DNA of 64,000 nt from Saccharospirillum sp. (GTDB taxonomy: Bacteria > Pseudomonadota > Gammaproteobacteria > Pseudomonadales > Natronospirillaceae). Where the stretch lies: contig JAIUML010000001.1 of NCBI GenBank assembly GCA_022565595.1, positions 186,001 through 250,000 of the forward strand, given 5' to 3'. Below are positions 245 through 61,489 of this stretch, in pieces; positions within the stretch are counted from its first letter, which is position 1; the number at the start of each line of letters is the position of its first letter. Made by a program: the position numbers and the translations under genes. The notes under the pieces are model-generated. The model ran no database searches, had not been told where the DNA came from, and saw only the letters and a program-made list of their open reading frames with translations.

Positions 245-718
245 ATGTCTTCCATACCACGCGAGAACGTCCAGTCTTACCCCCGCCCGCCCGCGCTGGA
301 GCCAGCGTCGCTGCCGATAACGATCTACCTTGGCGGTCTTCTAGTTGCCAAATCGAATCGCGCGTTGCGAGTACTGGAGACCCATCATGCGCCCACCTAC
401 TACCTGCCAGCAGCAGACGTTAGCGCTATACTTCATTCAGCATCAGGCTCAAGTTTCTGCGAGTGGAAAGGTAAGGCACAGTATTTTGATGTTATTGCTG
501 GGGACGTCATCGCCACTCGGGCGGCCTGGACCTACGAAAAACCGACCGATCGCTTTACACCCCTGGCCGGCTATATCGCTTTCTACGCTGGCAAGATGGA
601 CGAGGCCTGGGTTGGGGATATGCGCGTCATTCCACAGCCGGGTGATTTTTATGGTGGCTGGGTAACGCCCAATCTGGACGGCCAGATCAAGGGTGCACCA
701 GGAACGGGACATTGGTAA
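245..718 (+). CDS. DUF427 family protein
   Basis: A 157-residue soluble protein with the hallmarks of the DUF427 family. These are the core motif CEWKGKAQYFDV at residues 72-83, a W-x-Y-x-x-P turn near 95-100, the segment IAFYAGKMDEAWV at 111-123, and the near-universal C-terminal motif PGDFYGGW at 132-139. It also has the usual family length. DUF427 proteins are small beta-rich proteins without an agreed biochemical function. There is no signal peptide or membrane segment, so it is probably cytoplasmic. The Shine-Dalgarno sequence before the ATG is weak. The gene stands alone, about 100 bp before a CIA30-like gene on the same strand, and no functional link is visible. Confidence 0.85.
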   Translation: MSSIPRENVQSYPRPPALEPASLPITIYLGGLLVAKSNRALRVLETHHAPTYYLPAADVSAILHSASGSSFCEWKGKAQYFDVIAGDVIATRAAWTYEKPTDRFTPLAGYIAFYAGKMDEAWVGDMRVIPQPGDFYGGWVTPNLDGQIKGAPGTGHW

Positions 719-814
719 CTGCCTGCCTGACTGTCATCCAAAAAGAGCATCCTATCGTTTATGGAAGTCACCCGGGGAAAAAGTGGTTTTTCCTGGATCG
801 CAAACAGGAAGACC

Positions 815-1372
815 ATGCGTATACTGATCCTTGTGACATTGGCCCTTGCAAGCCTTACGCCGGCCATTGCCTCTGATGCACCAGGCAATATAGCGATCGA
901 GGAAATAGCCATGCAACCCGAACCCCAGTGGCGGTTTTTTACAGACCAGGTCATGGGAGGGCAGTCGACCGGGCAAGCAACCCTGGCGACAGATGCCGAT
1001 ACGCCCTATGTTCGTATGACGGGTCAGGTCAGTACGGCTAATCGCGGTGGTTTTATTCAGATACGGCTCGACCTGCCCGGCCCTGCGCCTGCAAACACCG
1101 AGGGCATCCGCTTGGTGGTGCGTGGCAACAATCAGCGCTACTTTGTGCACCTGCGAACTAGCGGCACAAGGTTGCCCTGGCAATATTACCAGGCAGGGTT
1201 CGAAGTCACAGAAAACTGGTCGGAAATACGGCTTCCGTTCGAGTCTTTTGTCGCCTCCGGTGCGCTACTGCGGAAAGTACCACGAGCCAGCAACCTCAAG
1301 TCGGCCGCTGTTGTTGCTTACGGGCGCGACCATGAGGCCCACATAGATGTTCAGGCGCTAGGCTTTTATTGA
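815..1372 (+). CDS. CIA30-like exported protein
   Basis: The family is named for complex I intermediate-associated protein 30; bacterial members are mostly uncharacterised beta-sandwich proteins. The ATG at 815 was chosen over an in-frame ATG 54 bp upstream for two reasons: AGGA lies just before it, and it begins directly with a signal peptide (MRILILVTLALASLTPAIAS). The mature part opens with the CIA30 signature WRFFTDQVMGGQSTG. It continues with the alternating strands of the carbohydrate-binding-like fold, including a segment ANRGGFIQIRLDL and a late strand WSEIRLPFESF. The length of 185 residues fits the family. The signal peptide implies an extracytoplasmic location, so an assembly role in complex I as in mitochondria is unlikely. 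It stands alone. Confidence 0.75.
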   Translation: MRILILVTLALASLTPAIASDAPGNIAIEEIAMQPEPQWRFFTDQVMGGQSTGQATLATDADTPYVRMTGQVSTANRGGFIQIRLDLPGPAPANTEGIRLVVRGNNQRYFVHLRTSGTRLPWQYYQAGFEVTENWSEIRLPFESFVASGALLRKVPRASNLKSAAVVAYGRDHEAHIDVQALGFY

Positions 1373-1662
1373 GTGCCGATTGATGCTTTTTGCATTAGGT
1401 TGAAGTGCCCGTTCTAGCGGGTGAAGTTCAGTGTCTTGTTTATTCCTGCCAAGCCCTGTGCTCCAGTCTCGGAGTGCGAATCCCTTGTATCGCTTCATGG
1501 CCGCACAGAGAGCGGAGCGCCGCCACTGGGTTAGCCTATCTGGGTGATTGTGCCAGGAGAAGACTACCCATAGCATCGGGTGGTTGAATTCACGCATTGA
1601 CGCTCAGGGAGGCAGGCTCTTCCTAGGGGTCAAACGAATCACTTGACTAACAAGGAATCCTT

Positions 1663-3612
1663 TTGCTCATGCTGGCAACCAAATCACACCCCTTTGTTCG
1701 CAGCAAGAACTGGCTCTCAGGCTGTACGATGTACCTTACCCTCATTGCGGCAGGTGGGCTTCTACTGGGTTGTGATTCTTCATCGGAGTCTGGCCTAAGC
1801 AGCCAGGATCAACAATTGCTTGATCGCCTTCAGGCGCCTGTCATAACGCACATGAACGCTCTAGGCTCTCCCGCTTACCCTGGCAGTCAGTTGGAGATCA
1901 GCGTTTCTGCCTACAGCCCTCTGGAAAGGAGCCTCAGTTATGAATGGTCCGTTCCCGATGAGTGGGATGTTCTGGATGAAAACTCTGATCGCATTACCGT
2001 TCAGGCTCCCTACGAGAAGGCGTTGACAACACCTGTTACCGTCGTGGTATCGGACGGCAGTCACAGCCAAAGCGCCAGCCTTGACCTGGCCACCAGGGGG
2101 CCTGCTATTGAACAGTTTTCTATTGTGGCGACGCCCGATGCCAACCAAATCGAAAGCATCGATTTCTCTGTCAATGCGTTCAATCGCGATGGGGGCTTGT
2201 TAAGCTATCAGTATCGCCTCGGCGGTTCCGCAATGGGCGAAGATTTGCCTCAATGGCAATGGCAAGCAGAGAGGGTAATTGCTCCGGGCTTCTATGATGT
2301 TAGCGTTACCGTCAGCGATGAAGGCGGACTGACCAGCAGCGCTTATTCAACCTTCTGGCTGCCCGGCATTTCAAACTGGACTACGGCTGGCGGAGACCGG
2401 CAGAGCACAAGGCGCAGCGGTGCTGACGTCAACGGTCCTACCTTATTGCCCACAGACATTTGGGCCTATGGAGCCGGCACCTCGAATTTCTCCGCACCTG
2501 CGATCGGGCCTGACGGTATGATCTATGCCATTCTGAACGAAGGCGATGATCTAAAAATTGCGGCCATAGATCCGACAGCGTTGCCTGCCAACCGCCTGGC
2601 CTGGGAGTGGAGTGAAGCGGCATTAAACACGGGCGACCATCAAATAGAGTACCTCAGCAATATTGTATTGGGTGACAATAGTGACCTCTTTGTAGCGGGC
2701 TGCCTCAGTAATGATAATTGCTATATTTTCCGGCTGAATACACAAGCGGAAACCGACGCTACTCGCCTGAACATTGCACGCACCATTGAAGATTTCAGAA
2801 CGTCACTTCCAACGATGCTCTCCATCGACCAGCAGGGCGTCGTCTATTTGGCGAATGGTCGTTTTGTGCGAGCCTTTACTTTTGGTGAGTCCACTTCTCG
2901 GGAATACTGGAACATCGAACTGGAACATTGGGTGAGAAACTATGCATTGGGCAATGATAATACCCTCTATGCAGTGCAGGAGAGCTCCGGTTCGAAATAC
3001 ATGTTAAGCGCCATCAAGACGCGTTACAGCCAGGCGGGCAGCCAATACGAATGGCGCGACGAAGCCGTGGCCCGTCGCGGCGGTTCCGATTTTTACCTCG
3101 GCATGGTGACGGGCAGTGACGGAACACTATACGCGCTGACCAAAAGCCATCTGACGGCCATTGAGGTGGACGACCTCTCGGTAAGCCCTTCCATCTCATG
3201 GGTCTATCCACCAGAGGGGCAGGATCCCTGGAGCTATGAATTTAACGCCAGGAGCCTTTTGATTCACGAGTCGACGCTTTATCTGGTTGAAGGCGTCGGG
3301 GGAGATGAAATACTCATGGCATTTGACCTCAGTAAAGATAAGCCTACGCCTAAGGTCATCTGGGAGCCGGGCGCTGACGCCAGAATTCGGTCTGCTCCAG
3401 CGATGAGCGCAGACGGAACGCTTTACCTTTTTGGTATTGAGAACGGCGATGGCGCTGTCTTCGCACTCGACAGCCGTCTGGACACATCGAACGATGAACG
3501 CTTGCTCTGGAAAAGTACCGGGCATGATCCAGGCACGAACGCCCGACTCCTGATTGGCGATGGACTCGTTGTCATCACGTCCACCGCCGGGGTGTTGCTG
3601 CTAAAGGAATAG
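1663..3612 (+). CDS. Lipoprotein with Ig-like and PQQ-type propeller repeats
   Basis: A 649-residue exported lipoprotein. The TTG at 1663 lies 6 nt after AAGGA. The ATG at 1669 is the alternative start and changes only two residues. The lipobox LLLGC gives Cys37 as the lipidation site. Residues about 55-235 look like two Ig/PKD-type beta-sandwich modules (strands such as LSYEWSVPDEW and VTVVVSDG). From about residue 240 there are repeated propeller blades of the PQQ/quinoprotein type, recognised by SAPAIGPDGMIYA, RSAPAMSADGTLYLF and similar repeats. No catalytic residues were recognised. Family knowledge suggests a scaffold or binding role on the outer membrane. The gene is monocistronic and is followed by a 14-bp inverted repeat. 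Confidence 0.8.
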   Translation: MLMLATKSHPFVRSKNWLSGCTMYLTLIAAGGLLLGCDSSSESGLSSQDQQLLDRLQAPVITHMNALGSPAYPGSQLEISVSAYSPLERSLSYEWSVPDEWDVLDENSDRITVQAPYEKALTTPVTVVVSDGSHSQSASLDLATRGPAIEQFSIVATPDANQIESIDFSVNAFNRDGGLLSYQYRLGGSAMGEDLPQWQWQAERVIAPGFYDVSVTVSDEGGLTSSAYSTFWLPGISNWTTAGGDRQSTRRSGADVNGPTLLPTDIWAYGAGTSNFSAPAIGPDGMIYAILNEGDDLKIAAIDPTALPANRLAWEWSEAALNTGDHQIEYLSNIVLGDNSDLFVAGCLSNDNCYIFRLNTQAETDATRLNIARTIEDFRTSLPTMLSIDQQGVVYLANGRFVRAFTFGESTSREYWNIELEHWVRNYALGNDNTLYAVQESSGSKYMLSAIKTRYSQAGSQYEWRDEAVARRGGSDFYLGMVTGSDGTLYALTKSHLTAIEVDDLSVSPSISWVYPPEGQDPWSYEFNARSLLIHESTLYLVEGVGGDEILMAFDLSKDKPTPKVIWEPGADARIRSAPAMSADGTLYLFGIENGDGAVFALDSRLDTSNDERLLWKSTGHDPGTNARLLIGDGLVVITSTAGVLLLKE

Positions 3613-3796
3613 CGGGTAGTCGAGGTTAGTAAGACCACTGCAGCGCCGATGATGGCAAAGGTGTCGCCTCCATCGGCGCTATAGCTATACAAAGCAATAC
3701 AACGGACACCCAAAGCATTAGCCCAGGTTGGCTATGGGTGTCTAAAGACCGTTGTTGCCCACTGTGGTGGATGTCCATCTAGTCTTCGTTTAACAG

Positions 3797-3832
3797 CTCT
3801 GTTCTTGAAACGTCCATTTTTCAAGAACAGAG
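3797..3832. terminator. Perfect 14-bp inverted repeat, putative bidirectional terminator
   Basis: Arms at 3797-3810 and 3819-3832 are exact reverse complements (CTCTGTTCTTGAAA) with an 8-nt loop. The repeat lies between convergent genes ending at 3612 (+) and 3861 (-). There is no clean T-run on either side, so termination is inferred mainly from position. A regulatory or mobile-element remnant is possible. Confidence 0.45.
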
Positions 3833-3860
3833 TAATGGCTCGGTATTTAATTGACCCCTT

Positions 3861-4415
3861 TCAAGAAGCCACTGCTTGAGCGATGGATACCTTGGGCTTT
3901 ACGGTCAGTGTCTGATGCAACCGCCCGGCAAGGTCGGACACGGAAATCAAACCTCTGATCTGATGCTGCTCTCGATCCAACACCAGACAATACGTCTCTC
4001 CCGATTCACGCAGGGTGTTGAGCATGTCCGCAATCTGGATGTTTTTCAGTGCCTCATAGTCCACTACCGGAATCTCTGCTCGCGGCTGCATCATATCTGA
4101 CGCCGTCAGTTCTAACCGGCCGACACCCAATAGGGCTTGAGTGATCAGGAAGCGCTGTTCGCAGAGCCGATCTTCACTCAAAAGCCCGACTAATTCGCCA
4201 GTCTTGTCGGCAACCAGCTTACAGTCCACCCCCTCCATCGCCATCTGTCTGGCGACATCTATGGCACTGGCATTAGAACGGACCTTATGAGGCTGGTGAA
4301 TGCGGAAATCCTTCAACAGAGCCAACACCGGTGACTGCTCGGTCCAATCGAAAAATTCATAGGGGCTTACTAAATGATCCTGCGGATCAAGATGGGATAT
4401 CGTAAGTTCTTTCAT
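3861..4415 (-). CDS. CBS-domain pair protein
   Basis: A 184-residue soluble protein consisting of little more than two CBS motifs. The first, at about residues 45-100, includes the SAIDVARQMAMEGVDCKLVAD and GELVGLLSEDRL strands. The second, at about 106-170, starts from SDMMQPRAEIPVVD and ends with IRGLISVSDLAGRL. CBS pairs usually bind adenine nucleotides and act as energy or ionic-strength sensors, but no partner domain is fused here. The start is supported by AGAGGT 7 nt upstream. That Shine-Dalgarno sequence lies inside an 11-bp arm that can pair with the end of the upstream gene (see findings). The upstream small exported protein gene is on the same strand 87 bp away and is probably co-transcribed. 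Confidence 0.8.
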   Translation of the reverse strand: MKELTISHLDPQDHLVSPYEFFDWTEQSPVLALLKDFRIHQPHKVRSNASAIDVARQMAMEGVDCKLVADKTGELVGLLSEDRLCEQRFLITQALLGVGRLELTASDMMQPRAEIPVVDYEALKNIQIADMLNTLRESGETYCLVLDREQHQIRGLISVSDLAGRLHQTLTVKPKVSIAQAVAS

Positions 4416-4422
4416 GGCGAAT

Positions 4423-4510
4423 ACCTCTGATACTTGCGCATCGAATGCACAAATACGACGAATGCATTTGGCAAAAAGCCAAACGCCTTTGGTTGTTCGG
4501 TATCAGAGGT
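4423..4510 (-). promoter_or_regulatory. Long-range stem that can mask a ribosome-binding site
   Basis: An exact 11-bp inverted repeat, ACCTCTGATAC at 4423-4433 and GTATCAGAGGT at 4500-4510, encloses 66 nt that contain a smaller TTTGGC/GCCAAA hairpin. On the minus-strand transcript the downstream arm contains the Shine-Dalgarno sequence of the CBS gene. The upstream arm contains the stop codon of the small exported protein. This geometry would suit translational coupling. Confidence 0.45.
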
Positions 4511-4808
4511 AGTAAGGTGGTGCGCGCGCATAAGGGCGAACTGCCGATACCGACAGATGTGCCCTGAGGGGTGATGGGGTGACGACCGAGTAAAACACCG
4601 ACGCCGCCGCATCGGCGATGGCAGTGCAAACCAGATCGTCTGGATCGCCTCCCAACGAGGGGTTTGGCAGTTCGACCCAGTGTTCATAGGGCGCATTCAA
4701 CGCCTGCTCTTTGCCCTTGCCAACCTCTGTTGCAGATGCCACCGACGCGGAAAAAACCACGCTCAGCATAGCGGCAGTTAACAGAAAGGATAGAACGCGG
4801 CTCAGCAT
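4503..4808 (-). CDS. Small exported protein of unknown family
   Basis: A 101-residue protein with a clear Sec signal peptide at the N-terminus (Arg4, then hydrophobic residues to about 22, cleavage likely after SASVASA). The mature part is short, about 75 residues, without cysteine pairs, repeats or a known motif; it contains one cysteine in DLVCTAIADAA. The Shine-Dalgarno sequence is weak. Its last codons form one arm of the RNA stem that reaches the ribosome-binding site of the downstream CBS gene, which supports its being translated. No homologue was recognised. Confidence 0.5.
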   Translation of the reverse strand: MLSRVLSFLLTAAMLSVVFSASVASATEVGKGKEQALNAPYEHWVELPNPSLGGDPDDLVCTAIADAAASVFYSVVTPSPLRAHLSVSAVRPYARAPPYYL

Positions 4809-5011
4809 ATTAATCAGGCAGTTTCCGTCGGGAAGTCAGTCATTGCAGGCCAACCAGCATTGTGGGGAGCCCATCAGGCAGGTGCTGACACTGTTACAGC
4901 ACCAACCTGGCTATCATTGTGGCATTCCTGCCGAGAATCAAGTATTTATTTATACGAAGAAAAGGCAGACACTCTGGTATTAGAAAAACGTTCTACTACA
5001 GAGAATATTGG

Positions 5012-5674
5012 ATGAATTCAACCACTGCTGACGCGTTACTCATGGGCGCTACCGGCCTTGTCGGCGCAGCCGCGCTGCCGCTTCTGGCACAAAGGTGTAC
5101 AACCGTCTGGACGCCCGGAAGACGCCCACCGCCAGACTCACCGGCCAACAGTGCTCATATCGAAACGGATTTTATCGACCTCAGTGCCCTGGATGCCTCA
5201 ATACCCAATGCGCCAGGGGTACTTTGCATCGCCTTTGGTACGACCATCAAGCAGGCGGGTAGCCAGGCTCGGTTCAAGACAATCGACAAGGACTACCCAC
5301 TGGCCCTGGCGCGTTGGGCCTTGCAAAAAGGCACCCGACGCATCTGCCTGATCTCGGCCGTCGGCGCTGACGCTCATTCCCGCGTTTTTTACAATCGCAT
5401 TAAAGGTGAGCTTGAGCAGGAACTGAAGGCACTGCCCCTACAGAGCCTGCATATTCTGCGCCCTTCTTTGCTGCTGGGGCATCACCCACACAGACCGATG
5501 GAAACATTGGGGCAAACAATAATGGGGCCACTTGCACCACTATTCCCTGCAAAAATACGGCCCATTCGGGCCAGTCAGTTGGCAGAAAAACTGGTGGCTT
5601 GCGCTATCGACAATAGCGCTGAAGGTGTGCAAATTCTCGAAGGCCGTGCGCTGTTTGAGACGGCACCCAGCTAA
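5012..5674 (+). CDS. NAD(P)-binding Rossmann protein, atypical SDR
   Basis: A 220-residue protein of the atypical short-chain dehydrogenase type (NmrA/HTATIP2-like). It has an N-terminal dinucleotide motif MGATGLVGAAA at residues 11-21. A later VGADAHSRVFYNRIKGELE segment resembles the SS...YxxxKGxxE pattern of oxidoreductases related to YbjT/HTATIP2, and a C-terminal HILRPSLLLGH segment is also typical. The start at 5012 was preferred because upstream in-frame codons encode a basic stretch atypical of the family. The substrate is unknown. It is followed 86 bp later by a small membrane protein gene on the same strand, with no clear functional connection. Confidence 0.7.
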   Translation: MNSTTADALLMGATGLVGAAALPLLAQRCTTVWTPGRRPPPDSPANSAHIETDFIDLSALDASIPNAPGVLCIAFGTTIKQAGSQARFKTIDKDYPLALARWALQKGTRRICLISAVGADAHSRVFYNRIKGELEQELKALPLQSLHILRPSLLLGHHPHRPMETLGQTIMGPLAPLFPAKIRPIRASQLAEKLVACAIDNSAEGVQILEGRALFETAPS

Positions 5675-5760
5675 CTGGAGGGTCGTACCAATTTTGGAGC
5701 CCAGGGCGGTTTGGTTTACACTGCCATCAATCGGACAAAACACCTTAAGGCAAATTCACC

Positions 5761-6039
5761 ATGAAGGCTCGACTCAGACAACTCTTCTCACCGCTGCTGA
5801 ATTACTTTGAAGCTGGCGAAGGTGAGTACCACTACCGGAAGCTGAATCGCTCTGTGCTGGTTGGTGTTGGCATTCTGCTGTTGGTTCTCGCTGCGGGCTC
5901 CTTTGCCTCGTCTCTGTTCATTGGCATCATGGGGGCCATTATCCCCATTGTGATTTTTCTCAGTGGTAGCATCGTCTGCCTGGTGATCGGCGTGCTCGGC
6001 AATGACCGGGCCGTCGCCAAAATTTGGGGCAACAAGTAA
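5761..6039 (+). CDS. Small two-helix membrane protein
   Basis: A 92-residue protein. The N-terminal 30 residues are amphipathic and charged. Two hydrophobic segments follow at about residues 34-52 and 54-80, separated by a short turn, and the C-terminus is short and charged. It resembles the many conserved hypothetical inner-membrane proteins of gammaproteobacteria, but I do not recognise the family. It ends 3 bp before the end of the convergent AAC(3)-I-like gene. Confidence 0.6.
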   Translation: MKARLRQLFSPLLNYFEAGEGEYHYRKLNRSVLVGVGILLLVLAAGSFASSLFIGIMGAIIPIVIFLSGSIVCLVIGVLGNDRAVAKIWGNK

Positions 6040-6042
6040 CCG

Positions 6043-6540
6043 TTATTCTTTTGAGCCCTCCTTCCCTGCCCCACCACTGCCCTCGGTGACGGGGATATCA
6101 AAGTGCAAAACATCTTCGCGCTGCCCCATACGGGTGTACAACGCGATGGCGGGCTCATCTTCCACACCCGTGTCGGCCTGCACATAAATCACAAAAGCTC
6201 CGCGCTCAATGGCCACTTTTTTCACCGCTTCAATCAAAGCTGTCGCAATGCCTTCGCGTCGATGTGACCCGGACACCGCCAAATCGTAAATGTAAATCTC
6301 GCTGCGCTCCTGTTCGAACTTTTTCAGCTCATAGGCCGCAATGCCACCCACGACCTCGGCACCTTTCAAGGCGGCAATGGCAATAAAAGAATCACCACCC
6401 AAAAGTCGCTGTAGGTAATCGGTGCTCGGCCGCTGGCCGGTATAGGTTTGTTCATCGTCGAAGACCTCACCAAAGAGGGTAGACACCGCTTCCATTAAGC
6501 CCGTATCACCGGGGCCAAGCTGACGACAGACAAGTGACAT
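6043..6540 (-). CDS. AAC(3)-I family aminoglycoside 3-N-acetyltransferase
   Basis: A 165-residue GNAT acetyltransferase resembling the AAC(3)-I aminoglycoside enzymes, which acetylate the 3-amino group of gentamicin-type compounds with acetyl-CoA. The diagnostic stretch EIYIYDLAVS at residues 81-90 is followed by HRREGIATALI (93-103), the acetyl-CoA pyrophosphate loop, and by VIYVQADTGVEDEPAIALYT near the C-terminus. The start at 6540 is fixed by GGAGG about 8 nt upstream. A longer reading to 6867 would run through a decayed lysR fragment. It may be an intrinsic environmental acetyltransferase rather than a clinical resistance gene; substrate range cannot be read from sequence. Remnants of an unrelated gene pair lie next to it, which suggests insertion. 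Confidence 0.8.
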   Translation of the reverse strand: MSLVCRQLGPGDTGLMEAVSTLFGEVFDDEQTYTGQRPSTDYLQRLLGGDSFIAIAALKGAEVVGGIAAYELKKFEQERSEIYIYDLAVSGSHRREGIATALIEAVKKVAIERGAFVIYVQADTGVEDEPAIALYTRMGQREDVLHFDIPVTEGSGGAGKEGSKE

Positions 6541-54063: not shown

Positions 54064-54219
54064 TGAGAGAAAAATCTACTTTTTCTTATACATTATTTCC
54101 AGACACGACAGTATAAGTATTTAATTTTAAACAACTGTCCAATAACCGTGCAATCTGTATAAACTCCGCCCCCCAGAACAATAAAAGACCTGTATTTGAA
54201 CCTTTTTTGGACGAGCATC

Positions 54220-55815
54220 GTGCGATCTATTATCTGTTTTTTCGCTGTATTGATCAGCTTGTTCGTAGGCCCTGCCGTAGCAAGCAACGGCCTGACGCTT
54301 CAATCTTTGGCAGCCTATCACGAACTCAATAAAGAATATTACCTGGCTGGAATTTACGCAGAATCCCCCTTTTCCAGCGCAGAAGAGTTCCATCAAATGG
54401 CCGGTGATAAACGGTTGGTAATCAAGGTCACCACCCGACGTTGGACGCCACGCCGCTTCGACATGATGTGGAAACAGGACATTGCCATCAACAATGACTT
54501 GTCAGTCAATCCGGCCATTACCGAAAAGATTCTGACCTTCACTGAAGCACCCACCGAGAACCTCTCCGTTGGTGACACCATTGTTATTGATCACCCGGCC
54601 GGAGCAGGCACCCACATCTGGATCAACAACAGTCTCTGGCTTGAATCCGATCAGGCCGGGCTCTTTACCTATTTTGCCAATGCCTGGCTTGGCGATGTGC
54701 CGGCTTCACGCTTGTTTCAGGACACTCTGCTAAAAGGCGCCCCACTGGATGAGCAGACGCTCGCACGCTATCAAGAACTGAATGCACCTGCCGACCGCAC
54801 CGACATTTTAAACCACTGGCAACAACAGCGGCAGAATCAGGGTGAGCAACAACAGGCTGAAGCCGAGCGCCGGGCGCGTGAAGAAGCCGAAGCCCAGGCA
54901 GCAGAACGCGCGCGCCAACAGGCTGCTGCCCGTGCCGACGAAGCCGAAGCCGCTGCAGCAGAAGCCGCCCGTGTGGCACAGCGCAGAGCCGAGGCTGAGG
55001 CCGCAGCTCAAGCCGAAGCCGATGCTGCAGCACGAGCGCGAGCGGAAGCGGCCGCCCGCGAAGCAGAAGCGGCGGAGGCTGCCGCCCTGGCCAGAGCACA
55101 GGCTGAACGGGAAGCCGCACAACGGGCCGAACGGGAAGCCGAAGCACTGCAATATTATCGTGAAGCCTATCACTGGGATTTGCTGCGCAAAGTCTACGCG
55201 CGCGTCAGCTACCCCGATTGGGCAAGGCAGCTTGGTCAGGAAGCCGATGTCCGGGTTGACATTATCGTCTCCCCCAATGGCGATCTACAACGCATCGACG
55301 GTGTCACCCCGGCCAACGCCGGCCTATTGGGCCAGGCATTAACAACGGCCATAGAACAATCAGCGCCTTTTGCCCCCTTGCCGGACGCCTTGCCCAATGG
55401 CGCACATCGCCTGAGCGTCAGCTACCCCTTTCGTCTGAATCAGAACCAGGCCAGCTTGCCGCCCAGACCATCACCCCCCGAATGGTTGCGAGAGTCCCTG
55501 GCACTGAGCGACGAAGAGCGCACCGAAATGCTGACTCGCTATCAGCAACGTTTAATGGCTCACATTGAGGGACACATCGAGTACCCCTACTGGGCAGAAA
55601 ACCTCGGCCAGCAGGGGCGTGTCGGCGTGCGCATCGAAGTCATGGCCGATGGCTCCATCAGCCAGATACAAGTTACCGAACGTTCACGACATGCCGTGCT
55701 TGACCGCGAACTGCAGGATGCTGCTAGACGAGCATTGCCGCTGGAGCCGATTCCTGACGAGTTGGGATACGCCCAGGTGACACTCGATCTGACCCACGAA
55801 TTCACCCTCAGGTGA
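54220..55815 (+). CDS. Chalcone-isomerase-like / coiled-coil / tandem TonB-C protein
   Basis: A roughly 531-residue exported or membrane-anchored protein. GTG at 54220 and TTG at 54196 are both possible starts; GTG is closer to a GAG-rich site and begins with a clean signal-like segment. Residues (TTG numbering) about 30-195 resemble the chalcone-isomerase-like fold (LAAYHELNKEYYLAGIYAES, VGDTIVIDHPAGAGTHIWIN). Residues about 215-320 are an Ala/Glu/Arg coiled coil like TolA. Two TonB C-terminal domains follow, at about 335-420 (ARVSYPDWARQLGQEADVRV) and 450-539 (YPYWAENLGQQGRVGVRIEV). Tandem TonB-C is uncommon. It precedes a porin and a PstS-like gene, suggesting an envelope-spanning energy or transport role. 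Confidence 0.75.
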   Translation: MRSIICFFAVLISLFVGPAVASNGLTLQSLAAYHELNKEYYLAGIYAESPFSSAEEFHQMAGDKRLVIKVTTRRWTPRRFDMMWKQDIAINNDLSVNPAITEKILTFTEAPTENLSVGDTIVIDHPAGAGTHIWINNSLWLESDQAGLFTYFANAWLGDVPASRLFQDTLLKGAPLDEQTLARYQELNAPADRTDILNHWQQQRQNQGEQQQAEAERRAREEAEAQAAERARQQAAARADEAEAAAAEAARVAQRRAEAEAAAQAEADAAARARAEAAAREAEAAEAAALARAQAEREAAQRAEREAEALQYYREAYHWDLLRKVYARVSYPDWARQLGQEADVRVDIIVSPNGDLQRIDGVTPANAGLLGQALTTAIEQSAPFAPLPDALPNGAHRLSVSYPFRLNQNQASLPPRPSPPEWLRESLALSDEERTEMLTRYQQRLMAHIEGHIEYPYWAENLGQQGRVGVRIEVMADGSISQIQVTERSRHAVLDRELQDAARRALPLEPIPDELGYAQVTLDLTHEFTLR

Positions 55816-56992: not shown

Positions 56993-57005
56993 GGGGTAAA
57001 CCGGA

Positions 57006-57431
57006 ATGATTTTTACTGCATTGAAACGAACCCTGCTGGTTGCCCTGCTGCTGGTGTCGACCAGCGCCATGGCGGAGTGGGTCATCATCGTTCACCCGAG
57101 CAATCAATCTGCGGTGGATGAACGACTGGTTCAGAACCTCTACCTGGGCAGGACCAATGAGTTTGCCGATGGCCAGAGTGCTGAGCCACTGGATCTTAAC
57201 CCAAGAGAAGCGCTGCACGAGCAATTCTTGCGCAAGGTGGTTCGTCAGCGAGCGGTCCAGTACCGTCGGCACTGGTCACAATCTCTGTTCACTGGTGGTG
57301 GTGAGCCGCCCGAACAGGTAGCCAGCCAGATGGAGATGGTGCGCCGTGTCAGCGAAAACCCGGCCATGATTGGTTACGTTCACAGCGACCAGGTGACCGA
57401 CAACGTTCGCGTCGTTCTGAGATTTCAATAA
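57006..57431 (+). CDS. Small PstS-like periplasmic protein
   Basis: A 141-residue protein with a signal peptide (MIFTALKRTLLVALLLVSTS). The mature part resembles a short half of a phosphate-binding (PstS) protein: a start strand EWVIIVHPSNQS, VQNLYLGRTNEFADGQSAEPLDLN, RAVQYRRHWSQSLFTGGGEPP, and an ending NPAMIGYVHSDQVTDNVRVVLRF. These sequences match the C-terminal PstS-like domain seen as short stand-alone proteins. With only one lobe, classical phosphate uptake is unlikely. It starts 13 bp after the porin stop, so they are co-transcribed. A sensor or porin-accessory role is plausible. Confidence 0.75.
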   Translation: MIFTALKRTLLVALLLVSTSAMAEWVIIVHPSNQSAVDERLVQNLYLGRTNEFADGQSAEPLDLNPREALHEQFLRKVVRQRAVQYRRHWSQSLFTGGGEPPEQVASQMEMVRRVSENPAMIGYVHSDQVTDNVRVVLRFQ

Positions 57432-57492
57432 GACTTCTAAAGCGAACCACATCCCGTTATGGTTAGGCCAAACCAAGCACTAAGGCCTGACC

Positions 57493-58737
57493 ATGACGCT
57501 CTCTCTTCATACCCTCCGCGAGTGGGACTCCACTGACCCACTGGCGTCTTTTCGTGATGAATTCGATCTGCCGGATGGCCTGATCTACCTAAACGGTAAT
57601 TCCCTGGGCGCGCTGCCCAAAGCCGCCAAGCAACGTGCTCAGCAAGTCATCGAGCAGGAGTGGGGCCAGGGCCTGATTCGCAGCTGGAATACGGCCGACT
57701 GGGTCAATCAGCCGCGCCGGCTTGGACAAAAGATTACGCCTCTGATCGGTGCCAAAGCCGAGGAAGTCGTTGTTGCGGATTCCACTTCGGTGAATCTGTT
57801 CAAGGTCGTTGCTGCTGCGCTGGCGTTGCAGCAAAAAAAGGGTCGGCACGAGATCATTACCGAGCCTGGCAACTTCCCGACCGACCGTTACATTCTGCAG
57901 GGGCTTTGTCAGTCACTGGCTGGCGACCCGGTGCTGACAACACTGCCAGCGACGGAGATAACGGACCGGATCAGCGAACAAACCGCTGTTGTTGTACTCA
58001 CCCATGTCCACTACAAAAGCGGCCAGATGCACGACATGAAGGCCATTACCCGCAAGGCGCACGAACAGGGTGCCCTGGTGGTGTGGGATCTCAGCCACAG
58101 CACAGGTGCGGTGCCTGTTGACTTGAATGGGGCTGATGCCGACTTTGCCGTGGGTTGTGGTTACAAGTACCTCAATGGTGGGCCCGGCGCGCCGGCCTTC
58201 ATTTATGTCGCTGAACGTTTTCATGGCAAGGTCGAACAGCCGCTCAGTGGCTGGTTTGGGCACAGCGCTCCCTTTGCCATGCTTGATGACTACGAGGCTG
58301 TGGGCGACATCCGCCAGATGCTGACCGGTACCCCTTCTGTCGTGGCGAACTCGTTGCTTGAAGTGGGTCTGGATATTTATGGGCGTGTCGACATGCAGCA
58401 ATTGCGGGAAAAGTCCGTACGTTTGACGGATGCGTTTATCGAGCTGGTTGAACAGAGTTGCGCCGACCGTGGGTTCACTCTCGCCTCGCCCAAAGACAGC
58501 AAGGTCAGAGGCAGTCAGGTATCGCTGACTCATCCCCAGGGTTACGCCATTGTCCAGGCCTTGATTGATCAAGGCGTTATTGGCGACTATCGCGCCCCGG
58601 ATATTCTGCGTTTTGGCTTTGCACCGCTCTATGTGCGTTTTGAGGATATCTGGCTGGCAGTTGAGACGCTCAAGAACGTCATGGACAAGGAATTATGGCG
58701 GGATGAGCGGTTTCAAAAACAGCAGGCTGTGACTTGA
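57493..58737 (+). CDS. kynU: Kynureninase
   Basis: A 414-residue PLP-dependent kynureninase, which cleaves kynurenine to anthranilate and alanine, or hydroxykynurenine to hydroxyanthranilate. PLP lysine is Lys225 in GCGYKYLNGGPGAP. Asp199 in WDLSHSTGAVP pairs with the pyridine nitrogen. IYLNGNSLGALPK, SWNTADWVNQPRRLG, ADSTSVNLFKVVAAAL and the C-terminal FGFAPLYVRFEDIW are family markers. Full normal length. No kynA or kynB is visible in this window, so the rest of tryptophan oxidation must be elsewhere. The next gene in the same direction is the PheS-like ligase, which may use a related aromatic compound. Confidence 0.95.
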   Translation: MTLSLHTLREWDSTDPLASFRDEFDLPDGLIYLNGNSLGALPKAAKQRAQQVIEQEWGQGLIRSWNTADWVNQPRRLGQKITPLIGAKAEEVVVADSTSVNLFKVVAAALALQQKKGRHEIITEPGNFPTDRYILQGLCQSLAGDPVLTTLPATEITDRISEQTAVVVLTHVHYKSGQMHDMKAITRKAHEQGALVVWDLSHSTGAVPVDLNGADADFAVGCGYKYLNGGPGAPAFIYVAERFHGKVEQPLSGWFGHSAPFAMLDDYEAVGDIRQMLTGTPSVVANSLLEVGLDIYGRVDMQQLREKSVRLTDAFIELVEQSCADRGFTLASPKDSKVRGSQVSLTHPQGYAIVQALIDQGVIGDYRAPDILRFGFAPLYVRFEDIWLAVETLKNVMDKELWRDERFQKQQAVT

Positions 58738-58859
58738 CAAGCCCCTGCCATAACAAGATGATAATTCCATGACTATCTTGATGATCGCACATCGATTTAC
58801 TGACCTCCGAGTCCTGCAACAGGGCACGGCGGTCTGACTTTTCCTGTCTGAAAAGCCAA

Positions 58860-58879
58860 CTCCGAGCCCGGGCTCGGAG
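58860..58879. repeat. Perfect 20-bp palindrome
   Basis: CTCCGAGCCC followed by GGGCTCGGAG is perfectly self-complementary. It lies 123 bp after kynU and 75 bp before the PheS-like gene. A second short stem CTTTTC/GAAAAG precedes it at about 58837-58854. It could be an attenuator, terminator or operator. No T-run follows, which argues against a standard terminator. Confidence 0.45.
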
Positions 58880-58954
58880 GCAATACTCAACTTTGATTTT
58901 TTGGGTATCAACAAACCGACATGTTGTTCGGTTTATGGCTTTTTGGAGATCACC

Positions 58955-60070
58955 ATGCCTGCACACCTCACTCTTGATCAGTTGATCAACGCGCTGTCCC
59001 TGCGAGACCTGACCGATGCCGCTCAAGGCACCCATGCCATCCAGGATTTGCTGGAGCAACTGACACAAGGCGTTCGAACCCTCTGGCAATGCCCGGTACA
59101 ACTACTTCGCGCCAATCCGCTCGTTAGAGTGTCCGAAAATTATGACGCACTCGGTTATCCTGTGGAGGGGCCGGCCAGAGACAGCCGTTACAGCCGATAC
59201 ATCAGCGAGCAGTGGATGCTTCGTACTCAGACGTCCACCATGGCGCCTGGCTGGCTGGCCTCCTGGGTGGACAAGACACCCAGAAAGCTGGCATTGATCA
59301 GCCCCGGGCTGGTTTATCGGCGTGATTGCATTGATCGTCTACATTGCGCCGAGCCACACCAGGTCGACATCTGGGTGCTATTGCCCAAACCTCTGGACGA
59401 ACCTGAAGAGGTACTTCGGTCTGCCGCCAGTGAAATTCTGCATGACCTTTTACCCGAACATGCGATTCACCTCTCGCCCTCCCCTCATCCCTATACTTTG
59501 AACGGTGTGCAGATTGATGCACTCAACGAACAGTCCGAGCTGGTGGAAGTGGGTGAATGTGGCCTCATTCATCCGGACCTGCTGACACGAGCAGGATGGG
59601 ATAACACTCGCATGACTGGCATTGCCATGGGGCTGGGCCTGGATCGTATCCTGATGTTGCGCAAGCACATGAAAGACATTCGATTGCTGCGTCAGGAACA
59701 CCCGGGCATTAGCGCTCAGTTGCAAGACCTGAAGCGATGGCGAACGGTCTCCTGGCAACCGTCAATCATGCGGGATTTGTCGATTGCTGCCGAAAATGAG
59801 ATGGACTGCGAAACACTTGGCGATCAGATACGCGAGGCCATTCCTGAGCAGGCAGACTGGATTGAGTCGGTCGAGTGGCTAGGCGAGACACCCTACGATG
59901 AGTTGCCGGAGTCGGCCAGGTTGCGGCTGGGGTTAAATCGGGAACAGAAAAACGTGCTGGTCAGGCTGGTGATTCGACATCCGACACGCAGTGTGAGTAG
60001 TGACGAGGCCAATGTCTTGCGGGAGCGGGTTAGTCGGGCGATTCATTGTGGGGGAGAGGGCCGGTCGTAA
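58955..60070 (+). CDS. Stand-alone PheS-like ligase with FDX-ACB domain
   Basis: A 371-residue class II synthetase-like protein. The ATG at 58955 has GGAGA 5 nt upstream; an earlier frame start lacks this. The catalytic part (about 55-255) carries PheS features: NYDALGYPVEGPARDSRY (62-79), LRTQTSTM (89-96, ligand pocket), motif 2 VYRRDCIDRLHCAEPHQVD (120-138), VEVGECGLIHPDLL (198-211) and motif 3 GIAMGLGLDRILMLRKHMKD (222-241, Arg231). Residues about 268-366 (WQPSIMRDLSIAAE, VLVRLVIRHPTRS) resemble the FDX-ACB anticodon-binding domain normally at the end of PheT. The N-terminal PheS coiled coil is absent. It resembles a monomeric mitochondrial PheRS. I recall such proteins being listed as PheS-related ligases of unknown substrate. 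Confidence 0.8.
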   Translation: MPAHLTLDQLINALSLRDLTDAAQGTHAIQDLLEQLTQGVRTLWQCPVQLLRANPLVRVSENYDALGYPVEGPARDSRYSRYISEQWMLRTQTSTMAPGWLASWVDKTPRKLALISPGLVYRRDCIDRLHCAEPHQVDIWVLLPKPLDEPEEVLRSAASEILHDLLPEHAIHLSPSPHPYTLNGVQIDALNEQSELVEVGECGLIHPDLLTRAGWDNTRMTGIAMGLGLDRILMLRKHMKDIRLLRQEHPGISAQLQDLKRWRTVSWQPSIMRDLSIAAENEMDCETLGDQIREAIPEQADWIESVEWLGETPYDELPESARLRLGLNREQKNVLVRLVIRHPTRSVSSDEANVLRERVSRAIHCGGEGRS

Positions 60071-60076
60071 ATGACT

Positions 60077-60103
60077 TTAAAAGCCCCGTTAAGGGGCTTT
60101 TAA
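60077..60103. terminator. Bidirectional rho-independent terminator
   Basis: TTAAAAGCCCC (60077-60087) pairs exactly with GGGGCTTTTAA (60093-60103) around GTTAA. A/T runs on both sides serve the PheS-like gene on the plus strand and the convergent TRAP operon on the minus strand. Confidence 0.9.
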
Positions 60104-60121
60104 TGCCTGCGGCACCGTCAT

Positions 60122-61489
60122 TTACCCATATCGCATCTCTGGCAACCACAGAACCAGGTCTTTCCAGAAAAAGACCATAATAACCGCCAACACCTGTATC
60201 GCGATGAAGGGTAATACGCCTTTGTAGATGTCGGTCATCTTGATTTGAGGCGGGGCAACACCCTTCAAATAGAATAACGAGAAACCGACTGGCGGTGTCA
60301 GGAAGGAGGTCTGCAAGGTCAGTGCAAACAGCACGACAAACCAGGTCAAATCGAAACCGAGCAGTTTGACCACTGGGCCAACCAGAGGCAGCAAAATCAA
60401 ACTGATTTCCAGCCAATCAAGGAAGAACCCGGCAATGAAGGTAATAAAGAGAATCACCAATACAATGCCGCCAGGCGACAACGGAATCGATGTAAGCAGA
60501 CCCGCGATAAACTGATCGCCACCCAGGTTACGCATGACCACGGCAAAGGCGGTTGCGCCCAGGAAAATACCGAAGACAAAGGCTGTCGTTATCGTCGTCT
60601 TGCGGGATACATCCTTTAGTACCGCCCAGCTCAAACGGCCATTCATGGCGGCCAGTATGGTCGCACCCAGAGCACCGACTCCTGAAGCTTCTGTCGGAGT
60701 AGCAATGCCGAAGAAAATCGAGCCCAGAACCGCCAGAATCAAAGCCAACGGTGGTACAACGGCCAACAATGTATTCCAGATCAGTTTGCCAGTAATGGGC
60801 GGCAAATCGGTTCTGGCAGGAGCAAAACCCGGAATCAGGGTTGCAGCAATGATCACATAGATGATGTACATGAAGCCTAACATCACACCGGGAATCAAGG
60901 CTCCCATGAACAAGTCACCTACGGAAATAGACAACTGATCAGCCATAATGATGAGCATGATGCTCGGTGGAATCAGAATCCCGAGTGTTCCGGAAGAGGC
61001 AACAATGCCACTGGCAAAGGAGGGCGAATACTTTTGTTCCAACATGACAGGAAGAGACAACATGGCCAGCAATACAACAGAGGCGCCCACGATACCGGTA
61101 GAGGCTGCCAGCATAATGCCGATCAGGATGACGGCGACCCCGAGCCCACCGCGAAAACGACCGAAGATATTGACAAAATTGACCATGAGTCGCTCGGCAA
61201 CACCTGAGCGCTCCAACATCAAGCCCATAAATATGAACATGGGCAAGGCCACCAGAATCCATTTGGTCATCTGGTCGTAAATACGCTGAACGAAGATGCC
61301 GAAAATGCGCCAATCCGTCAGGAAATAGGTATCTACGTCGAAATACTGGAAGGCGACAATTGCGCCAACACTGAAAAACACCGAAACACCGGCGAGGATC
61401 CAGGCCACTGGATAGCCAGTAAAAATGAGCAGAATAAAACTGCCCAACATCGCCATTACGATGATCTCATAAGTCTCAAACACAAACAT
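60122..61489 (-). CDS. dctM: TRAP transporter large permease (DctM type)
   Basis: A 455-residue membrane protein with about 12 transmembrane segments, the DctM core of a TRAP transporter. Signatures are SFILLIFTGYPVAWILAGVSVFF, LMVNFVNIFGRFRGGLGVAVILIG, AASTGIVGASVVLLAMLSLPVML, YSPSFASGIVASSGTLGILIPPSIMLI and LLTPPVGFSLFYLKGV-like LTPPVGFSLFYL. The start is uncertain: ATG at 61489 (chosen), TTG at 61501, or GTG at 61483, the last having the best spacing from GGAG. It follows the small permease gene by about 39 bp. It moves an organic anion with Na+. Confidence 0.88.
   Translation of the reverse strand: MFVFETYEIIVMAMLGSFILLIFTGYPVAWILAGVSVFFSVGAIVAFQYFDVDTYFLTDWRIFGIFVQRIYDQMTKWILVALPMFIFMGLMLERSGVAERLMVNFVNIFGRFRGGLGVAVILIGIMLAASTGIVGASVVLLAMLSLPVMLEQKYSPSFASGIVASSGTLGILIPPSIMLIIMADQLSISVGDLFMGALIPGVMLGFMYIIYVIIAATLIPGFAPARTDLPPITGKLIWNTLLAVVPPLALILAVLGSIFFGIATPTEASGVGALGATILAAMNGRLSWAVLKDVSRKTTITTAFVFGIFLGATAFAVVMRNLGGDQFIAGLLTSIPLSPGGIVLVILFITFIAGFFLDWLEISLILLPLVGPVVKLLGFDLTWFVVLFALTLQTSFLTPPVGFSLFYLKGVAPPQIKMTDIYKGVLPFIAIQVLAVIMVFFWKDLVLWLPEMRYG

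Follow-up and report, generated by a model that had tools for sequence, protein, structure and literature searches.

Architecture of srmL and its product

The window, by which we mean the whole analysed stretch of 64,000 nucleotides from Saccharospirillum sp., carries a PheS-like ORF on the plus strand at 58955-60070 (ATG at 58955, stop codon at 60068-60070, 371 aa), exactly where the first-pass annotation of this DNA had placed it. The protein belongs to NCBIfam NF051887, 'PheS-related mystery ligase SrmL' (459.4 bits against a curated cut-off of 300), a family that is already named, with no function in its name. The gene immediately upstream is a kynureninase gene by Pfam (kynU); its stop codon ends at 58737, leaving the gap of about 217-218 nt that had been reported as 218 bp. 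The features considered below are as follows.

58734..58762, plus strand: sigma-70-like promoter (-35 TTGACA at 58734-58739, 17-nt spacer, -10 at 58757-58762)
58769..58837, plus strand: predicted leader peptide ORF, MTILMIAHRFTDLRVLQQGTAV and stop (CGA at 58793-58795, TTT for Phe at 58796-58798)
58802..58834, plus strand: hairpin inside the leader (regions 1:2), after the Phe codon and before the leader stop
58848-58858 / 58936-58946, plus strand: long-range stem CUGAAAAGCCA/UGGCUUUUUGG, found in single and alignment folds
58860..58879, plus strand: hairpin CTCCGAGC/GCTCGGAG (regions 3:4), its 3' arm able to pair with the leader around the Phe codon
58955..60070, plus strand: srmL, with a PheS-type catalytic core at residues ~25-248 and an FDX-ACB-like domain at ~262-363
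60077..60102, no strand assigned: short GC hairpin between A and T runs after srmL, likely a bidirectional terminator judging from its sequence, with the hairpin alignment taken from an Rfam match far below its cut-off

Bacterial PheRS is a PheS-PheT tetramer, and single-chain PheRS is known from mitochondria. The SrmL protein matched Pfam tRNA-synt_2d, the class II core of PheRS, at residues 25-248 (4.6e-32), and FDX-ACB at residues 268-363 with an E value of 0.0016, which lies under Pfam's cut-off. The C-terminal end of the pheT model (its last ~100 positions) matched srmL in 5 of 8 other records in one search and in 6 of 11 genomes in a second, the window's own copy having no such match, and 11 of the 19 aligned SrmL members match that model. 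A P..(R/K)D core is common to the C-terminal domains of SrmL, PheT and the mitochondrial type, and the SrmL domain contains an insertion about a dozen residues long. The C-terminal FDX-ACB-like domain that had been read from the sequence is therefore borne out, weakly in the window protein and better in its relatives, and the structural alignments described next agree with it.

An AlphaFold model of SrmL built from seven sequences reached middling confidence (pLDDT 78.7, pTM 0.57). Helices are predicted at residues 7-15 and 28-44 ahead of the core, with low confidence there; no long N-terminal coiled coil was seen in the model, and no pheT lies near srmL in the window, in line with the two absences annotated earlier. 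In a Foldseek search against the PDB, the top seven matches were all human mitochondrial PheRS (410-433 columns), one of them the complex with tRNA(Phe), and the alignments with 5mgv and 3cmq spanned 414-418 columns, in keeping with a core and a C-terminal FDX-ACB domain in one chain. The TM scores were modest (0.43-0.48) and the rmsd was high (14-19 Å), which may reflect a different angle between the two domains or an imperfect model. The SrmL family profile, searched against solved structures, also placed mitochondrial PheRS first (1.2e-38). On sequence and predicted fold, SrmL has the architecture of a single-chain PheRS, a core followed by a C-terminal FDX-ACB domain.

Distribution and phylogeny of the SrmL family

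All 19 aligned members matched the NF051887 model at E 0.001 or better. The window protein scored far below the cut-offs of both the pheS equivalog TIGR00468 (92.8 bits, cut-off 237) and the mitochondrial model TIGR00469, pheS_mito (92.3 bits, cut-off 258). Genome tallies, each of which counts the window's own genome, found srmL to be rare: 1 of 398 genomes in the phylum sample exceeded the family cut-off (the window's own), and the other matches there fell below it, as expected of pheS; srmL was present in 9 of 22 genomes of the window's family (protein query, E 1e-60), 9 of 390 of its order, one of them outside the family (protein query, E 1e-40), and 3 of 369 of its class (alignment query, E 1e-70). 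Most of SrmL was encoded in 2 of 72,556 plasmid records (Azotobacter chroococcum and Glutamicibacter nicotianae), and a partial copy in one further plasmid (Corynebacterium diphtheriae). Among 50,697 phage records, one genome of 634,780 bases carried most of SrmL, and a pattern-limited scan of IMG/VR added five contigs of 181-578 kb; a single-protein query of viral data gave no match, and the alignment query recovered six loci. This host range is a lower bound, Actinobacteria and other phyla lying outside the genome survey.

In a midpoint-rooted tree with long branches, the 19 full SrmL members formed one clade (100/100), apart from 14 PheS proteins and a mitochondrial-type PheRS (locus L061). 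Two phage groups and several bacterial groups lie within this clade, whose deep forks are not resolved. The aligned members are 34-62% identical to the window SrmL. The alignments leave out L045, in which the N-terminal part is missing, L064 (first match at 1-296 of 372 positions), L003 (same genome as L055; alignments A1 and A2), L081-L087 (repeats of L056-L060) and L061, which serves for comparison only in the pocket and the tree; the L060 copy, with an ambiguous start, was aligned from an internal codon. L061 (4869-5882 of a 90.7-kb IMG/VR contig) represents another type of single-chain PheRS among viral sequences, with an FPF loop and an FDX-ACB domain scoring 65 bits.

Among the matches listed, 'SrmL' occurred in the open-access literature only as unrelated acronyms, and we found no account there of a leader, tRNA-Phe neighbours, phage members or a functional proposal for srmL; these are contributed here, and the family name is older. 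For three SrmL proteins scanned, PHROGs returned merely an unannotated family. PADLOC gave no match for the two SrmL proteins scanned, and the reading of srmL as a defence system was dropped.

Catalytic residues and substrate pocket

The motif 2 arginines R122/R123, the LRTQTS pocket segment and the motif 3 arginine R231 named in the first-pass annotation are all present. R90, R122, R123 and R231 are invariant in 19/19 aligned members, so that the motif 2 and motif 3 arginines of class IIc PheRS are kept throughout; H130, E133, P134, H135, Q136 and D138, as well as H178, Y180, E201, R273 and D274, are equally invariant.

We compared the pocket with the PheS proteins of 13 fetched loci that passed the filter and with the window genome's own PheS. 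Roles in the PheRS pocket have been described for Phe216, Phe258 and Phe260 (PMC8555319). At the FPF loop (Phe258/Phe260 of T. thermophilus), SrmL has H178-P-Y180 and so departs from the bacterial Phe-binding loop; the position of the adenine-stacking Phe216 is occupied by P134, and E201 and D138 replace a Gly and a Glu of the PheS pocket. P134, D138, H178, Y180 and E201 differ both from PheS and from the mitochondrial-type L061. The proposed comparison with PheS and the mitochondrial type thus came out in two parts, the catalytic arginines being kept and the FPF loop and stacking Phe being replaced. Eukaryotic cytosolic PheRS is described as likewise lacking FPF (Asn410/Tyr412 instead) while still binding Phe, the ring being anchored by Tyr412 and Phe438 (PMC12447630). 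The loss of FPF is therefore compatible with a Phe substrate, an argument that does not extend to P134 and E201.

SrmL resembles mitochondrial PheRS (human FARS2; TIGR00469), its best match by fold and by profile, in combining a PheS-type core and a C-terminal FDX-ACB domain in one chain with no editing domain. It differs in the change of FPF to HPY, in the FDX-ACB insert, in its own clade and in its low TIGR00469 score. Human and yeast mitochondrial PheRS are described as monomeric (PMC9976931), and the monomeric or single-chain cases described in that source are mitochondrial.

Canonical PheRS in the same genomes

A search of the window's genome for pheST, as the earlier annotation had proposed, located canonical pheS (G000:C4:103453-104352) and pheT (G000:C4:100984-103353) side by side and away from srmL. 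Full-length pheT was also present in 11/11 other srmL-bearing bacterial genomes, 12/12 with the window's own, in a tally of bacterial genomes that leaves plasmid hosts aside; srmL is therefore an extra gene in all 12 bacterial genomes of the sample. The annotation had staked its case for an unusual ligase on the presence of pheST elsewhere and the retention of the catalytic arginines, and both were found. No pheS or pheT exceeded the cut-off in the six phage records, some of which may be fragments; weak matches to these models were srmL itself and one 66-position stretch (E 6.6e-4, LR745206.1).

Conserved leader ORFs upstream of srmL

The -35 hexamer of the promoter-like site overlaps the kynU stop codon, and the site agrees with the consensus at 10 of 12 positions; because the region holds two promoter-like sites against 1.0 expected, it is weak evidence alone. 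Similar hexamers were seen by eye before several other srmL leaders. The leader ORF, which did not figure in the first-pass annotation, came to light in the 450 nt ahead of srmL. It starts seven bases past the end of the -10, so that the transcription start would be expected near its ATG and the leader may be leaderless.

A short CGA-TTT (Arg-Phe) leader ORF precedes srmL in all 14 bacterial copies with upstream sequence, as against a short ATG ORF with CGA-TTT in 2 of 117 other upstream regions of the same loci. In 13 of these leaders CGA-TTT is followed by Thr, Ser or Ile, and the fourteenth (L064) is the same as that of L063, from the same genus. The place of Arg-Phe ranges from codons 6-7 to codons 17-18. 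The bacterial leaders hold one Phe codon, or two in two cases. Of the 12 measured, 8 have their stop codon 39 nt from the Phe codon, and the others 36-54 nt from it. Taken together with the phage copies described below, predicted leader ORFs with one or more Phe codons at the control position occur in 14/14 bacterial and 2/6 phage copies.

Within the window's leader, the hairpin at 58802..58834 has a folding energy of -20.0 kcal/mol for a 39-nt piece (z -3.6); the helix also appears in the fold of a six-sequence alignment, where it is nearly invariant and so shows little covariation. The hairpin at 58860..58879 was also called as a terminator-like palindrome on the minus strand. The long-range stem at 58848..58946 closes a multi-branch structure beside a U-run and the SD (GGAGA, 58945-58949). 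In the group of six copies to which the window belongs, a long-range AAAAGCCA/UGGCUUUUU stem next to the SD takes the place of a classical terminator, and from the folds this stem is presumed to act as a terminator or as an SD-masking stem. No classical terminator was found between the window's leader and srmL; a terminator-like hairpin was called at 58913-58934, the count of such hairpins being within that of shuffles. Rfam gave no family at cut-off in window positions 57000-61000 or near srmL in L046, L059 and L044.

Predicted attenuation at the Phe codon

In 12/12 testable bacterial leaders (L044 lay outside this test), the leader segment that best complements the hairpin's 3' arm has its start 0-4 nt from the first base of the Phe codon, the arms having been hand-picked from folds. 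By eye, this complement co-varies with the hairpin arm between groups. It was found in 0/2 phage leaders. We then modelled the ribosome at two positions in 14 leaders (12 bacterial, 2 phage). With the ribosome at the Phe codon, the 5' arm of the hairpin paired upstream with a probability of 0.60-1.00, and with the ribosome at the leader stop this upstream pairing fell to 0.01-0.47, a shift seen in 14/14. Antiterminator pairing was above the mean of shuffled sequences in 14/14 but within the top 5% in just 3/14, which leaves the pairing model plausible, not proven.

Of 15 copies, 8 have a classical terminator in the interval from leader to srmL, compared with 4 of 118 control regions (150 nt); the control is rough, the srmL segments being of other lengths and one of the 118 controls being the L080 srmL copy. 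Such a terminator was absent in 7 of 13 bacterial copies, namely the window's group of six and L044. In two phages, short ORFs with several Phe codons are followed by a terminator: MNTNTTFNFFFSHKMV in L046 (4 Phe in 16 codons) and MNMLNKNNFSFFMFDFFGTQARGAILLKE in L059 (6 Phe in 29 codons). Among the other genes of these two loci, a short ORF as rich in Phe was found ahead of 1 of 31 (L046) and 1 of 12 (L059). No credible leader was found in the other four phage copies (L056; and L057, L058 and L060, which lack a Phe-containing short upstream ORF). The bacterial leaders alone would be compatible with Arg sensing, because CGA is as invariant as the Phe codon and the latter is mostly single. The leaders of L046 and L059 have no Arg at the control site, and Phe is the element common to the bacterial and the two phage leader sequences.

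Phage and plasmid contexts

In L057, srmL (4965-6095) is flanked by tRNA-Phe(GAA) genes at 4720-4794 and 6246-6320, and 2 of the 17 tRNAs of this locus are tRNA-Phe. In L060, tRNA-Phe(GAA) is the second tRNA upstream of srmL, with 2 of 24 tRNAs being tRNA-Phe; the two observations are not independent, since L057 and L060 are 67% identical. L058, from a 508-kb viral contig, has synthetase ORFs of Trp/Tyr type, Ser type and a short His type, together with six tRNA genes, in the 4.5 kb ahead of srmL (514-4986); the locus has 17 tRNAs in total. ARAGORN found no tRNA in the 11 kb of L056, where the gene directly upstream of srmL (3901-4998) encodes polynucleotide phosphatase and kinase-like domains, an arrangement suggestive of phage tRNA repair. 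tRNA matches are numerous in five of the six phage records, at 49-71 each. Huge phages are described as carrying up to 15 tRNA synthetases (PMC7162821). The sixth record, L059 (181 kb), has no tRNA match and carries a tmRNA gene on the minus strand at 856-1231 (ARAGORN tag ANDTNYSLAA; RF04321 permuted tmRNA 141 bits, overlapping RF01850 140 bits), so that its labelling as viral should be treated with caution.

Two of the three plasmids carry srmL close to drug-resistance genes, which is suggestive, although such genes are common on plasmids of this kind. The L044 copy is near a Cmx-type efflux gene and tet(33). The partial copy of the C. diphtheriae plasmid (L045:11582-12229) lies between erm(X) and tet(65), matches only from residue ~157 on and is 86% identical to the Glutamicibacter copy.

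Neighbouring genes at bacterial loci

Six window genes were tested directly for presence at other srmL loci. A kynU homologue was found at 0/19 of them (tblastn, E 1e-5; flanks of ~5-12 kb), so kynU is not a conserved partner. The TRAP transporter downstream of srmL is also present in L047, a close relative, and L053 shares the DctM-type subunit alone, distantly; it too was rejected as a partner. The ~60 clusters listed for the bacterial loci revealed no gene that accompanies srmL consistently, and ARAGORN found no tRNA beside srmL in the window, L043-L045, L047-L055, L063 or L064.

Proposed function of SrmL

SrmL is probably a single-chain PheRS that supplements the housekeeping enzyme and is produced when Phe-tRNA(Phe) is scarce, a reading to which we assign a probability of roughly 0.64. 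It draws on what the sequences hold directly: a single-chain architecture, leader ORFs conserved among the bacterial copies, a hairpin arm complementary to the leader around its Phe codon, Phe-rich leaders in two phages, tRNA-Phe genes near srmL in two others, and pheT in every bacterial genome found to carry srmL. Among the functions suggested by the first-pass annotation, the charging of tRNA(Phe) by an additional synthetase is the best supported, through the Phe-codon leaders, the tRNA-Phe genes in two phages and the pheT in 12/12 genomes. SrmL would activate phenylalanine and charge tRNA(Phe) without PheT, as mitochondrial PheRS does. The leader ORF with its Arg-Phe codons would be translated; with Phe-tRNA(Phe) scarce, the ribosome would stall at the Phe codon and cover region 1, and region 2, thereby freed, would pair with the 5' arm of the next hairpin and allow srmL expression. 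With Phe-tRNA plentiful, translation would run on to the leader stop, allowing the hairpin that terminates transcription or masks the SD to form. SrmL may serve as a backup for the housekeeping PheRS or to charge phage tRNAs. It would be useful if the housekeeping enzyme were inhibited, damaged or overloaded, and less so if Phe itself were missing.

This arrangement resembles E. coli pheM-pheST, in which a Phe-rich attenuator leader with alternative hairpins is described upstream of pheST (PMC5371410): srmL leader Phe codons are likewise followed by predicted alternative hairpins ahead of a PheRS-type gene. Unlike pheST, srmL has no adjoining PheT, and its bacterial leaders mostly hold one Phe codon after an invariant CGA. 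A Streptomyces TrpRS is likewise under attenuation control. Additional synthetases have been tied to antibiotics (TrpRS with indolmycin, IleRS2 with mupirocin, SerRS with albomycin) and are sometimes plasmid-borne (PMC9437257). SrmL resembles these auxiliaries as an additional synthetase beside the housekeeping enzyme, sometimes on plasmids, and differs from them in that no inhibitor or resistance is known for it; no auxiliary inhibitor-resistant PheRS stood out among the matches listed from the open-access literature. More tentatively, and with the odds against it, SrmL could be a mobile, inducible rescue PheRS against a natural attack on PheRS or Phe-tRNA, in bacteria and huge phages alike. 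If so, there would be an undiscovered natural PheRS inhibitor, or a weapon of hosts or phages directed at Phe charging, and srmL would confer resistance or counter-defence, much as plasmid-borne IleRS2 does for IleRS. A transferred single-chain PheRS with a Phe-codon attenuator, in bacteria, on plasmids and in huge phages, would assign a function, open to direct assay, to a family so far known by name, would offer a small PheRS for study and would raise the question of why a second PheRS is worth carrying.

Several other functions were weighed against the auxiliary PheRS. SrmL might recognise tRNA(Phe) and activate a different amino acid, such as a polar aromatic or a modified Phe, or recognise another RNA. 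The five pocket residues that set it apart from PheS and L061, invariant in 19/19, speak for such a change; Phe binding by the FPF-less eukaryotic cytosolic enzyme (PMC12447630), the Phe codons common to 14/14 bacterial and both phage leaders and the tRNA-Phe neighbour in two phages speak against it, and we give it only a small chance. Slightly less probable still is a non-translational ligase or carrier function (EpmA-like, or as in amino acid:carrier protein ligases) with a retained tRNA-binding-like domain. The family is rare and patchy, it bears the name 'mystery ligase', and other synthetase paralogues are described as acting outside translation (PMC9437257), but the anticodon-type domain is kept and conserved, srmL lies among synthetase genes and tRNAs in L058 and close to tRNA-Phe in L057 and L060, and the bacterial clusters listed revealed no constant partner.

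The invariant Arg-Phe dipeptide of the 14 bacterial leaders, with two of three plasmid copies amid resistance genes (L044, L045), could also mean that the leader responds to an antibiotic that acts on the ribosome and halts it at Arg-Phe, SrmL acting in that stress and Phe-tRNA playing no part as the signal. We regard this as quite improbable: the two phage leaders are Phe-rich without Arg-Phe, and the place of the dipeptide varies, unlike in known drug-arrest leaders. An aromatic-catabolism ligase tied to kynureninase, with kynurenine, anthranilate or another aromatic as substrate, had been suggested from the closeness of kynU in the window and can hardly be right, the link being absent from all 19 other loci and further weakened by srmL having its own promoter-like site and leader. 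A decaying, functionless pheS duplicate, as the truncated L045 copy and the ambiguous L060 start codon might suggest, is just as hard to credit, given that 19 members at 34-62% identity keep the catalytic residues.

Elsewhere in the window, a 539-aa ORF at 54196-55815 holds a long Ala/Glu/Arg-rich stretch between two other regions and by eye resembles a coiled coil or a TolA-like linker.
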